DNA from: an uncultured Erysipelotrichaceae bacterium
GTDB lineage: Bacteria > Bacillota_I > Bacilli_A > Erysipelotrichales > Erysipelotrichaceae
NCBI GenBank assembly: GCA_947649125.1
Contig: CANSQL010000004.1
Location: 1 to 64,000 of the forward strand
DNA: 64,000 nt
Reading direction: 5' to 3'
Position 1 is the stretch's first letter; every line of letters starts with the position of its first letter. A program made the translations under genes and the position numbers. The notes under the pieces are model-generated. The model was not told where the DNA came from. It did no database searches and was given only the letters and a program-made list of their open reading frames with translations. Shown piece by piece: positions 2,550 through 26,081 of this stretch.

Positions 2550-3797
2550 ATGGCAGTGTTTAAGAAAAATAATAAATGGTATATCAAAGGAAAGATAAAA
2601 AAAGATGACGGTTCATACTATCAATACACAAAGCTAGCGCAAGGTTGTCAACTTCAAAAAGAAGCGAAAGAGTATGAGCGTTTATTTAGGATACAATATC
2701 AAGATATACAAGTATCAATAAGAAATAAAACATTTGAAGAAATCGCCATTGAAATGAATAACGACGATATCAATGTAAAAGAAGCTACGAGGCATACTAA
2801 TTTGGAGGTGCTTCGCAGGATATTTCCTAAAATCGGTAATAAGAAAATAAATCTTATCACTAAAGATTATTTACAGAGATTTATACGTGAGCTTGAGTCT
2901 AAATACTCAGAAGCTTATGTCTCCGCTATTTACTACGCCATTAATAAAGTGTTTAAATTCGCTGTAACAAAAGATTATATACAGATCAATCCCCTATCCA
3001 AAGTAAGATTGCGTGTAGATCGTGATACGGTAAAGGCAGAGAAGCGCTTTTGGGAGCCGGCTGATTTTGAAAGGTTTATTAATGAAGCAGATGACCTTGA
3101 CATGAAGGCATTCTTTATTTTTTCCTTTTGGATGGGATCAAGAAAAGGGGAAACATTGGCACTCCAGTGGAAGGATATTGACTTTGATAATAACACTGTT
3201 CATATCCGTAAGACGATGACGAGACGAGTGGAAGGAAAGACGTGGGCTCTTACCAACCCAAAAACAAAGAACAGCATTCGTAATATAACGATGCCGGATG
3301 TGGTAGTAAAGGAATTACAGGCCTTATATGAAAGGCAAAAGGTTATGTATGGATTCAATGACGAGGTTTTCCTATTTGGATATTATCGACCTATGCCTGA
3401 TGATTATCCGCGCAGATACATGGTTAAGCTGTTAGATCATATCAATAAGAATGCTGAGCATCCGTTGACAAGAATCACAATTCATGAATTCCGTCACAGT
3501 CATGCTTCCTATCTGATTAATAATATGAGTGATCAGTTCACCGTTTATGATATTGCGAAACGATTAGGTGATACAGTTGAGACGGTGCTAAGCACCTATG
3601 CGCATCAATTTAAGAACGCTGATAAGAAGTTAAGTGATTTTATTAATAAAGATGTGAATAAAGAACAAACCGTACAACAGGCTGAAACGAAGCCTAATAA
3701 GTATGATGAATTAATCGAATTAAAGAAGCTGCTTGATATGGAAGTCATTACACAAGATGAATTTGAGGCTAAAAAGAAGTTAGTGCTTGGAATATAA
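2550..3797 (+). CDS. int: phage tyrosine recombinase (integrase) with SHOCT-like tail
   Basis: This 415-residue integrase catalyses site-specific insertion and excision at the tRNA-Gly attachment site 130 bp away. Residues 1-30 resemble an arm-type DNA-binding domain, about 55-155 the core-binding helical domain, and about 165-365 the catalytic domain. Visible catalytic residues are Arg198 (GSRKGE), Lys238 (NPKTKN), His312-x-x-Arg315 (HEFRH) and the nucleophile Tyr350 (STYAH). After the catalytic domain a linker leads to residues about 385-415, which match the short SHOCT pattern (helix, loop ITQDEFEAKK), an oligomerisation motif also seen at other phage integrase ends. AGGATGGTG precedes the ATG. 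Confidence 0.95.
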   Translation: MAVFKKNNKWYIKGKIKKDDGSYYQYTKLAQGCQLQKEAKEYERLFRIQYQDIQVSIRNKTFEEIAIEMNNDDINVKEATRHTNLEVLRRIFPKIGNKKINLITKDYLQRFIRELESKYSEAYVSAIYYAINKVFKFAVTKDYIQINPLSKVRLRVDRDTVKAEKRFWEPADFERFINEADDLDMKAFFIFSFWMGSRKGETLALQWKDIDFDNNTVHIRKTMTRRVEGKTWALTNPKTKNSIRNITMPDVVVKELQALYERQKVMYGFNDEVFLFGYYRPMPDDYPRRYMVKLLDHINKNAEHPLTRITIHEFRHSHASYLINNMSDQFTVYDIAKRLGDTVETVLSTYAHQFKNADKKLSDFINKDVNKEQTVQQAETKPNKYDELIELKKLLDMEVITQDEFEAKKKLVLGI

Positions 3798-22879: not shown

Positions 22880-24247
22880 TTATTCATATCGGATAAACTT
22901 CGTTATATAACGCTCAATCGTATATTCAAAGGCATCCAATGTATCGATATCACTTGTTCCGTTATCCAGTCTTTCATCCTCAACCAACTTATCCGGATTC
23001 CATATAGCACTGCACAGCGCTGTTACCAAAGAATCACACATTTCTGCCATATAATAAAAACGCATCTGCGCCATCATTCTATTAGTGAGACGAATGCGTT
23101 CTGTTATTACTTCTTTCAATGCGTTGTCTATCCTAAGCCAGCCTAAGCCTTGCTTTTTGGCCGTGCTGCGTAATCCGTTGATTAATGTTTGTTCTGCACT
23201 ATCACAATACACATGTGTGATATTTCCGTACATGTTTAAAACTCTATAACAGAAATCTATGAAATACTGCCCCAGTTTATCAGGATCTATATCTCCGTTG
23301 CTGCAATCGTACCACTGGGAAGCTAAAACAATAATTTCTTGATAGTTTCTTGTAATTCCGGTTGCCACAAAAGCATGTCCGGAACCGTTACCGCCAAAAT
23401 CCACACCGATGATAATCTCTGATAAATTAGGCGGCTTTTCTTTTTTCTTAAATCTATTTTCTCTTGTTTCGGTTTCTGAATTTACGGCATCCGCAAAAGC
23501 TCTGTATATCAGACCTTCGGCAATTACCCGCTTGCCTAGGATATCACGCTGATACCATATACTCTTTTTATCGTATTGACTTTCGATTTCAAGTTTGCGT
23601 TCATCAGAGATGTTGACGTTATCTTTTAGTGTGAAATGTTCATAATTGTATCCACCCAGTAAATTCCCTTCAGCATACTGCTTAGCGTATTTATCAATAT
23701 ATTCTGTGTATATCTTAGCTTTTGGGTTGTCGGGGTTTAGATCCCAAAAAATTTTACGCTTATGCGCTGCAAGCTGTCTGTTGAAAGCCTCTCTGATCGT
23801 GTTTTCGTGATGCAGGTTGATTTCTGTTGCTATCCACATACCGTATGAATTACCACGTATCTTTTTGAAAGAATCAGCTTTCGCAGCACCCGCAAATATT
23901 ACAATGCGTTGTTTATTACAAGTAGATGGTCCTTTGATATATAAGCAGTCATTGCCTTTGTATTTGCCCCAATGTGATTGCCCTCTGAATATGTACTCTA
24001 ATCCAAAGCCATTGGCGTCACCGATATTCAGCTTTGCGTTGGCTACGGTAGAGCCTGTCGCGAGATGAATGCGATCTCTTGTTGATTTTAAATCATGTGC
24101 AAAAGCATAAATGTTGTCCACTGTCTTACCTGCACGCACAGCACCTTCCGCAACATTATAGATACAATCGTTGCATTTACGGATATATGATATATGCTTA
24201 GAACCAAAATTAAACGGTATCGTCTTTTTCTTTGTTATTTTCGCCAT
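22880..24247 (-). CDS. terminase large subunit (PBSX type)
   Basis: 455 residues. The N-terminal ATPase has a variant Walker A (GAVRAGKT, residues 35-42) and the DLNPDNP segment. The C-terminal RNase H-like nuclease shows the acidic residues of IIGVDFGG, CDSAEQT and DTLDAFEYT. It powers DNA packaging and cuts the concatemer. The start overlaps the small-subunit gene by 38 bp and has only a weak ribosome-binding site, so coupling is likely. Confidence 0.95.
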   Translation of the reverse strand: MAKITKKKTIPFNFGSKHISYIRKCNDCIYNVAEGAVRAGKTVDNIYAFAHDLKSTRDRIHLATGSTVANAKLNIGDANGFGLEYIFRGQSHWGKYKGNDCLYIKGPSTCNKQRIVIFAGAAKADSFKKIRGNSYGMWIATEINLHHENTIREAFNRQLAAHKRKIFWDLNPDNPKAKIYTEYIDKYAKQYAEGNLLGGYNYEHFTLKDNVNISDERKLEIESQYDKKSIWYQRDILGKRVIAEGLIYRAFADAVNSETETRENRFKKKEKPPNLSEIIIGVDFGGNGSGHAFVATGITRNYQEIIVLASQWYDCSNGDIDPDKLGQYFIDFCYRVLNMYGNITHVYCDSAEQTLINGLRSTAKKQGLGWLRIDNALKEVITERIRLTNRMMAQMRFYYMAEMCDSLVTALCSAIWNPDKLVEDERLDNGTSDIDTLDAFEYTIERYITKFIRYE

Positions 24248-24938
24248 ATATCATTTCATCCGTTTCTGCAGTATCCTCTATCTCTGTATTGTTTCCGGTT
24301 AACTTATCTGTCTGCGCTTGTATTTGCGCTAATCTTGCCTTTTGTATCTCACTGGCTGTCTCCCAGTTTCGATGCAGCAGGGCATCATAATCCTTGATCA
24401 TTGACATCAGTGTACCCATAGCACGACTTTGTGCTTTCATGTTACTTGCCTCTTTATCCCAAGCTTGTTGGACCTCATACCCTAAAGAATCACCCTTGAA
24501 AGTCAATTCCGTTGTTTTGTCATCTTTATTTAAAACGTGCATGATATTCTGAGAATGGATCACTCTTGCATATTGCAGCTCAATCCCTTGCCATACAACA
24601 TCCAAAGGGTCTTGCGGCATCTCTTTTATGATTTCTATAAGCTCTGGCGGAACGTACTTGGAATATAGCCCGTGCTTCATCGCATTTTGGTTTCCGAGGT
24701 TCTTTCCTTTAGCATTTTGATTGCCCGGTTGTCCACCTCGTTTTTTCGGAGTACTCCAATCACTTTTTTTCGGAGTACTCCGATTATTTCCCAACCATTT
24801 ATCTTTGCATTTCCAACCGGATACCGTCTTTTCGGAGCACCCTAGAATGCCTGCAATCTCTCTGTTGCTAATCTGTCCGTCATGCTCATCGAATATCTCT
24901 TTAGCTTTTTTTCGATTTTCTGATTGCGCCTTCGGCAT
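24210..24938 (-). CDS. terminase small subunit
   Basis: 242 residues. An N-terminal helix-turn-helix (ISNREIAGILGCSEKTVSGWKCKDKW, about 23-48, quoted in parts as ISNREIAGILG and TVSGWK) is followed by a GNQNAKG...GNQNAMKHGLYS segment typical of this family. A unit STPKK(S/R) is doubled at 8-residue spacing. The protein recognises the packaging site and recruits the large subunit. AAAGGAGTG precedes the ATG. The DNA of the doubled unit carries two GGAGTACTCC palindromes. Confidence 0.9.
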   Translation of the reverse strand: MPKAQSENRKKAKEIFDEHDGQISNREIAGILGCSEKTVSGWKCKDKWLGNNRSTPKKSDWSTPKKRGGQPGNQNAKGKNLGNQNAMKHGLYSKYVPPELIEIIKEMPQDPLDVVWQGIELQYARVIHSQNIMHVLNKDDKTTELTFKGDSLGYEVQQAWDKEASNMKAQSRAMGTLMSMIKDYDALLHRNWETASEIQKARLAQIQAQTDKLTGNNTEIEDTAETDEMIYGENNKEKDDTV

Positions 24939-24997
24939 TCTATCACACTCCTTTCTGGATAAAAGATTTTTTCATTACTTTTTATTGCATATTCTGA

Positions 24998-25003
24998 TAT
25001 AAT
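24998..25003 (+). promoter_or_regulatory. extended -10 promoter on the plus strand
   Basis: TGATATAAT is a perfect extended -10 element; the -35 region at 17-base spacing (TTACTT) is weak. It points against the late operon and is followed by a structured RNA that ends in a clear terminator at 25324-25359. Confidence 0.5.
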
Positions 25004-25009
25004 GATTAT

Positions 25010-25359
25010 AAGAACAAGCACGTTATTGTTCTAGGAGCACATTAGCGGAGGTAACTATGTTAACAAAACTTTTGTTCTCCCCCGGACTCATGATCTAGCT
25101 GTATAAGTCAATACCGCGGGATTAGTGCTGAGCGCGGTACTCATTTGCACTGATTCATTGGCGATTACCTGCAAGGATTCGCTACCCTAGTACGTGTTAA
25201 TCGCGATATCAAAGCTTATGAAAATGATACAGTGGGGGTTATGCAAAGCGGGGCATGATGGGTGTGCTCATCAAACTTTGCAGTCAGAGTAATAGGGTTT
25301 ACTTTGAAGAGTCCTAGCACACAACAGTTGGCGGACCCTAACGTCAACTGTTTTTTTTT
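25010..25359 (+). ncRNA. structured non-coding RNA candidate, plus strand
   Basis: A 350-base stretch with no credible long gene but dense base pairing: AGAACAA/TTGTTCT (25011-25032, with a second TTGTTCT at 25072), AACAA/TTGTT (25062-25076), TACCGCG/CGCGGTA (25112-25139), GCGATTA/TAATCGC (25161-25204), TGCAAAG/CTTTGCA (25242-25282) enclosing TGATG/CATCA, and a 10-bp terminator stem (25324-25351) with nine T. The loop of the third helix can pair over 7 positions with 25147-25153, a pseudoknot. A 13-codon ORF with GGAGG before it starts at 25058. It runs opposite to the late operon. The class is unknown. Confidence 0.6.
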
Positions 25360-25364
25360 ATGCA

Positions 25365-25620
25365 ATTTAAAAAGCACGTTTTCTCCTGTATCCCTTATCG
25401 TGGGCAGTTCTGCGTGCTTATCTCATAGGCGTATAGCCTCTATATATCTTTCAAGCTCTCGCTTGTCAGATACTTCTTTAAGTCGGCTAGCGGAGTTGCA
25501 CCGCTATAGAGGGGAGATGTACTACTGCCGACATGTATTGCCGGATTGCTCCGGCTATGATAGAAAAGAAGAAATAAAGATTGGATTTCGTAGGGATTAG
25601 CTCTTTCCCTCGATATCCAC
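25365..25620 (-). ncRNA. structured leader or small RNA upstream of terS, minus strand
   Basis: On the minus strand this stretch folds into GCCGGA-GCAA-TCCGGC (25540-25555) and CAAGC-GAGA-GCTTG (within 25445-25475), both closed by GNRA tetraloops, a nested pair GTCGGC/GCCGAC enclosing TAGCGG/CCGCTA (25482-25532), and a final AAGCACG/CGTGCTT stem (25372-25419) followed by five T. GNRA loops exist only on this strand, which supports its direction. It begins just after the ArpU-like gene, so it may be the terminated leader of the late operon, like the lambda pR' leader, or a free RNA. The promoter would be near 25620-25645 (TAATATGAT). Confidence 0.5.
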
Positions 25621-25661
25621 ACTATCATATTACCACGTTTTTTAAGGAAAAATGTTTCCAC

Positions 25662-26081
25662 TTAAAATAAACCCTTCAAAATCTTTTGCGACCGTTTAAA
25701 TATTGCCGAACGTGAATAGTTATATTTCTTCTCAATATCAGCATATCTCATTTTAACCACATACAGATCAATAACAAGGTTTTTGTCCTCTAAGCTATTT
25801 ATCGCTTCGATTTTTTCACAATACCTAATTCGGTCTATGTAGATTTGCCTTTCTCTTGTCAGCTTTGTTTCAATCTCCATCAATTCTAGTTTTGCGACAT
25901 CACTGTAAGGATCGTTTGCGTTCTCACAAATTGTGGCCTTTACGTTTGGACTACTTACCCCCTGCAAACGATAGGCAGCTTCTTCAAGCTTTAAATTATA
26001 TTCCATGATTACGCGGCAATAATAATCGCATGATCTTAGATCTCTGATAAACTGATTAACCATTTCTGATGTATCTAACAT
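25662..26081 (-). CDS. ArpU/RinA-like late transcription regulator
   Basis: 139 residues, helical, with a sigma-70 region 4-type helix-turn-helix at the C-terminus (MRYADIEKKYNYSRSAIFKR). Proteins of this group activate the late operon of Firmicutes phages. It is the last gene before the structured region and the terminase genes, the usual place. AGGAGG precedes the ATG. Confidence 0.85.
   Translation of the reverse strand: MLDTSEMVNQFIRDLRSCDYYCRVIMEYNLKLEEAAYRLQGVSSPNVKATICENANDPYSDVAKLELMEIETKLTRERQIYIDRIRYCEKIEAINSLEDKNLVIDLYVVKMRYADIEKKYNYSRSAIFKRSQKILKGLF

Follow-up and report, generated by a model that had tools for sequence, protein, structure and literature searches.

The Prophage and Its Late Region

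The window, by which we mean the whole stretch of 64,000 nucleotides analysed here, belongs to a contig of an Erysipelotrichaceae-type genome, and the titles of the related loci name Erysipelotrichales or Erysipelotrichaceae. A prophage spans about positions 2404-41030; a preliminary description of the locus had placed it in a phage, and this origin is borne out by an att repeat, an integrase and a tRNA-Gly integration site. The features that frame the late region are as follows.

2347-2420: tRNA-Gly gene, the integration site
2404 and 41012: att direct repeat of 19 bp, TCCCCTCATCTGCTCCATA, marking the prophage ends at the tRNA-Gly gene
2550-3797: integrase
22880-24247, minus strand: terL, late genes
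24210-24938, minus strand: terS, terminase small subunit
25662-26081, minus strand: putative ArpU/RinA-type late activator gene (PHROG 36, transcriptional regulator)

The match of the regulator gene to PHROG 36 is weak (E 2e-4), and its assignment to the ArpU/RinA type is putative. No convincing protein gene was found between terS and this regulator gene. The interval holds the predicted transcript from which the analysis started, here called RNA-A, on the plus strand. The strand opposite is not empty: a second RNA, structured and conserved and here called RNA-B, adjoins RNA-A and is arguably the more interesting of the two.

A Conserved RNA and Probable Late Leader on the Minus Strand

RNA-B comprises the following elements.

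about 25620-25367 (ends approximate), minus strand: RNA-B, a conserved RNA and apparent late-operon leader
25627-25632, minus strand: late promoter of RNA-B, -10 element, preceded by an inverted repeat
25481-25556, minus strand: core of three helices, covarying pairs occurring in two
25372-25419, minus strand: terminator of RNA-B, AAGCACG...CGTGCTTTTT

We found RNA-B to be conserved in seven prophages or contigs, the window being compared with L002 and with the genome loci G001, G002 (twice), G003 and G005. Most copies begin at a TGNTATAAT-like promoter, in which an inverted repeat (e.g. ATCCAGTCGCTGGAT) stands in place of the -35, and a clear terminator, commonly AAGCACG...CGTGCTTTTT, closes every copy except one. 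Within the 76-nt core, 99% of cells are paired and 5 of 17 pairs have changed on both sides, with slid controls all at 0, in a small sample of seven sequences, six of them distinct and all from closely related phages. RNA-B is absent from Rfam. A 17-mer from its hairpin was also traced in viral contigs, where it was found in L002 and the remaining matches were at chance level.

A covarying structure between a late promoter and a terminator, upstream of terS, is the mark of a late-operon leader, and RNA-B has this arrangement. In phage lambda, the unit pR'-6S RNA-tR' consists of the late promoter, a short structured leader and a terminator, followed by the late genes, and it lies beside the late activator gene. 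By analogy, and judging from its location between the regulator gene, which it directly follows, and terS, RNA-B looks like the counterpart of this unit, and it shares with it the order of late promoter, short structured leader, terminator and late genes. It differs from the lambda unit in having a putative ArpU-type activator instead of Q, in its unrelated sequence, and in the cargo genes that can lie between its terminator and terS. Control of late transcription, earlier proposed for RNA-A, is much better assigned to RNA-B.

Gaps without a frame of at least 60 aa also occur upstream of terS/terL in other phages (L006 3962-4656, L007 3659-4678, L009 3653-4375 and L015 4151-4953). Rfam gave no matches in these large gaps, which possibly represent further leader RNAs.

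An Accessory Slot between RNA-B and terS

The stretch from the RNA-B terminator to the terS ribosome-binding site forms a slot that, in sister phages, carries unrelated genes in late orientation.

G002:C7: N6 methyltransferase
G003 and G001: ParE-type toxin and partner
G002:C28: TPR protein
L002: DUF2806
Slot coordinates: L080 3800-5700, L081 8340-9700, L082 7150-8230, L084 930-1600, L002 2130-3580

The TerS proteins of the slot-bearing relatives are 48-95% identical. In the window, the slot holds RNA-A alone, in reverse orientation, with about 8 nt separating its 3' end from the 3' end of RNA-B. Since the slot carries unrelated cargo in sister phages, RNA-A is not a conserved part of a late switch or of packaging. 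The most fitting view is that RNA-A is exchangeable cargo, outside the core of late control and packaging.

Transcription Signals, Fold and Coding Content of RNA-A

The elements of RNA-A are listed below.

25010-25359, plus strand: RNA-A, a putative standalone structured RNA (fold, shuffles, promoter-terminator unit)
24995-25003, plus strand: extended -10, TGATATAAT, exact
25011-25032, plus strand: 5' hairpin AGAACAA/UUGUUCU; the alternative partner of AGAACAA is 25072-25078
25057-25098, plus strand: 13-codon ORF MLTKLLFSPGLMI with a GGAGG ribosome-binding site, overlapping the 5' strand of the central helices
25084-25314, plus strand: closed multibranch domain; closing helix 25084-25089/25309-25314, pair probability 0.87
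25284-25307, plus strand: 9-bp hairpin; its loop (25293-25298) can form a kissing contact with the terminator loop or with the ACCCTA copy at 25184-25189
25323-25359, plus strand: intrinsic terminator, stem 25323-25333/25342-25352, then T9

The extended -10 described at the start of RNA-A is present as an exact copy. A good -35 was not found for this promoter, nor an upstream inverted repeat like that of the late promoter, and a sigma-70 scan missed the promoter because it has no -35. The terminator with nine T is also present at the other end; its stem, given earlier as 10 bp, is counted here as 11 pairs, one of them G-U. Between TGATATAAT and the terminator hairpin, about 350 nt of the plus strand are without a convincing gene. 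This terminator is unmatched in the window: no other hairpin there combines 8 or more T with a folding energy at or below -10 kcal/mol. An exact TGNTATAAT within 500 nt of such a terminator occurs once in the window and in none of 100 dinucleotide-shuffled windows. RNA-A thus has the layout of a standalone bacterial or phage sRNA gene, namely its own promoter and an intrinsic terminator flanking a non-coding stretch.

The fold of RNA-A is non-random. Of 800 shuffles, 2 reached its minimum free energy of -107.6 kcal/mol (z about -3); the complementary strand folds less well (z -1.65). Its excess stability ranks 18th among 362 segments of the same sequence (top 5%), so that folding energy by itself would not pick it out. 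The helices described earlier recur in the minimum-free-energy structure, which contains the long-range closing helix together with helices at 25011, 25112, 25161, 25256 and 25284, and both copies of the duplicated TTGTTCT were located (25026 and 25072). The supposed pseudoknot of seven pairs holds as complementarity but takes another form, namely a contact between the hairpin loop at 25293-25298 (UAGGGU) and the terminator loop at 25335-25340 (ACCCUA) by 6 Watson-Crick pairs and one G-U; 6 pairs were reached by 8 of 800 shuffles (1%). A second ACCCUA copy lies at 25184-25189.

The 13-codon ORF with a good ribosome-binding site was found as described. A further stretch of 34 codons, FIGDYLQGFATLVRVNRDIKAYENDTVGVMQSGA (25154-25255, plus strand), has phage-like codon use, with a score matched by 21 of 500 shuffles, and lacks a start codon. 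A coding reading of this stretch was rejected for want of a convincing protein relative. A reading of RNA-A as tmRNA was likewise rejected: there is no acceptor or T arm, and ARAGORN was negative.

The Search for Relatives

In Rfam 15, with 4227 families including GOLLD, ROOL, tmRNA and 6S, no match was obtained for 24940-25660 at E values up to 5, and the proposed comparison of RNA-A with Rfam and its large phage RNAs accordingly gave nothing. No homologue of RNA-A was found in 50,697 phages, 72,556 plasmids, more than 1,000 genomes or the viral-contig loci, the genome searches covering 98 relatives, the order, and samples of the phylum and class. Searches of the fetched loci by nhmmer returned the window itself only, and a covariance model built from the 3' domain of the single sequence recovered only itself.

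Several short matches were set aside. Among those found by BLAST at 25189-25241, that in L062 lies inside a biotin-carboxylase gene, and those in L066, L079 and L095 share an A-rich stretch; all were taken as chance. Exact 16-17-mers of RNA-A in IMG/VR viral contigs (39 stretches) did not extend in any case and were regarded as chance words. Rfam searches of the related loci revealed nothing matching RNA-A; an unrelated skipping-rope RNA (RF02924) was recorded, together with a tRNA, immediately ahead of terL in the related viral contig L020 (4369-4437).

The lack of homologues, the codon-like stretch and the modest rank of fold stability would all be consistent with RNA-A not being an RNA gene at all, the slot holding a decayed fragment of a protein gene or random sequence flanked by a chance promoter and terminator. 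We consider this explanation rather doubtful, since the codon-like stretch has no convincing protein relatives and the promoter-terminator unit is absent from shuffles. RNA-A is best described as an orphan, probably an RNA gene but one for which these searches gave no relative.

Comparison with Known RNAs

RNA-A resembles the large ornate RNAs GOLLD and ROOL (PMC12286853) in being phage-borne and in having a multibranch core, a long-range closing helix and a predicted loop-loop contact, and it may be asked whether it is a small RNA of that kind, working through its own three-dimensional shape. This is improbable: RNA-A, at about 350 nt as against 659 or more than 800, is half the size, is not at a tRNA island and has no tRNA neighbour; none of the Rfam models matches it at E up to 5, and it is without relatives, whereas the GOLLD and ROOL classes are widespread.

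The cabRNA of staphylococcal phages, a structured RNA of about 400 nt made at terS/terL (PMC10686824), is similar to RNA-A in size and terminase neighbourhood. A structured RNA of about 350-400 nt that adjoins terS, where the phage also has a putative activator of the RinA/ArpU type, might likewise be sensed by, or oppose, host defence. However, cabRNA comes from inside terS-terL (PMC10686824), whereas RNA-A lies upstream of terS, antisense and under its own promoter, and such a role is highly improbable.

Possible Action of RNA-A on the Late Transcript

RNA-A fits no known family, and its nearest kind is the standalone antisense or regulatory RNAs of phages. The earlier view of a phage-borne regulatory or structural RNA is partly supported: the anatomy is best read as an independently transcribed structured RNA borne by the phage, while late control is more convincingly placed with RNA-B. 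With a probability of roughly 0.5, we regard RNA-A as an "RNA moron", a standalone gene for a structured RNA that occupies the slot of an Erysipelotrichaceae prophage as cargo and whose orientation makes it antisense to the late leader.

The lambda RNAs OOP and aQ are phage antisense RNAs, each a short unit with its own promoter and terminator directed against a lytic-cycle transcript. RNA-A is similar in being a short unit with its own promoter and terminator that would oppose a lytic-cycle transcript, but it is complementary only to an untranslated late leader and not to a regulator gene, and it is far more structured.

As judged from the predicted transcripts, RNA-A lies in cis-antisense position, on the plus strand inside the minus-strand late region from RNA-B to terS. 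By geometry, its one certain partner is the late transcript: the leader segment of that transcript from RNA-B to terS would be fully complementary to it. From the extended -10 promoter, transcription of RNA-A would face the late operon instead of running along with it, and would stop at its own terminator about 8 nt before the convergent RNA-B end. Its expression would most plausibly be constitutive in the lysogen, as no activator site was seen. The 5' end may switch between two hairpins by means of the two TTGTTCT partners, and translation of the 13-codon ORF may open the central helices. RNA-A would then act by base pairing: leaky late transcripts in the lysogen could meet a perfect antisense RNA, leading to RNase III cleavage or polymerase collision. 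The combined reading, in which the prophage carries a structured RNA as cargo in place of a protein gene and this RNA tunes the neighbouring late leader or terminator by base pairing, through antisense action or mimicry of a terminator arm, is unlikely.

In a related proposal, RNA-A competes with RNA-B or acts on it in trans as an antiterminator: the 5' hairpin loop of RNA-A, a mimic of the terminator's 5' arm in RNA-B, would hold the 3' arm and allow late read-through. Over 9 nt, AAGCACGTT (25016-25024) is perfectly complementary to the 3' arm of that terminator, and two more 8-nt complements to the RNA-B hairpin arms are colinear. However, at least one 9-mer match to RNA-B occurred in 82 of 400 shuffles, so that the 9-nt match is suggestive but not significant, and three 8-mer loci matching RNA-B were found in 9.4% of shuffles. 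With RNA-B present in sister phages that have no RNA-A, we hold this mechanism to be quite unlikely.

Implications

If RNA-A is expressed as standalone cargo, it would be an RNA-only cargo gene at a site where toxin, methyltransferase and similar genes otherwise sit, and accessory slots of phages can then carry RNA genes missed by annotation. RNA-B, for its part, is a conserved, unannotated RNA of Erysipelotrichaceae prophages with the appearance of a late leader, and it opens late-gene control in these gut phages to testing.
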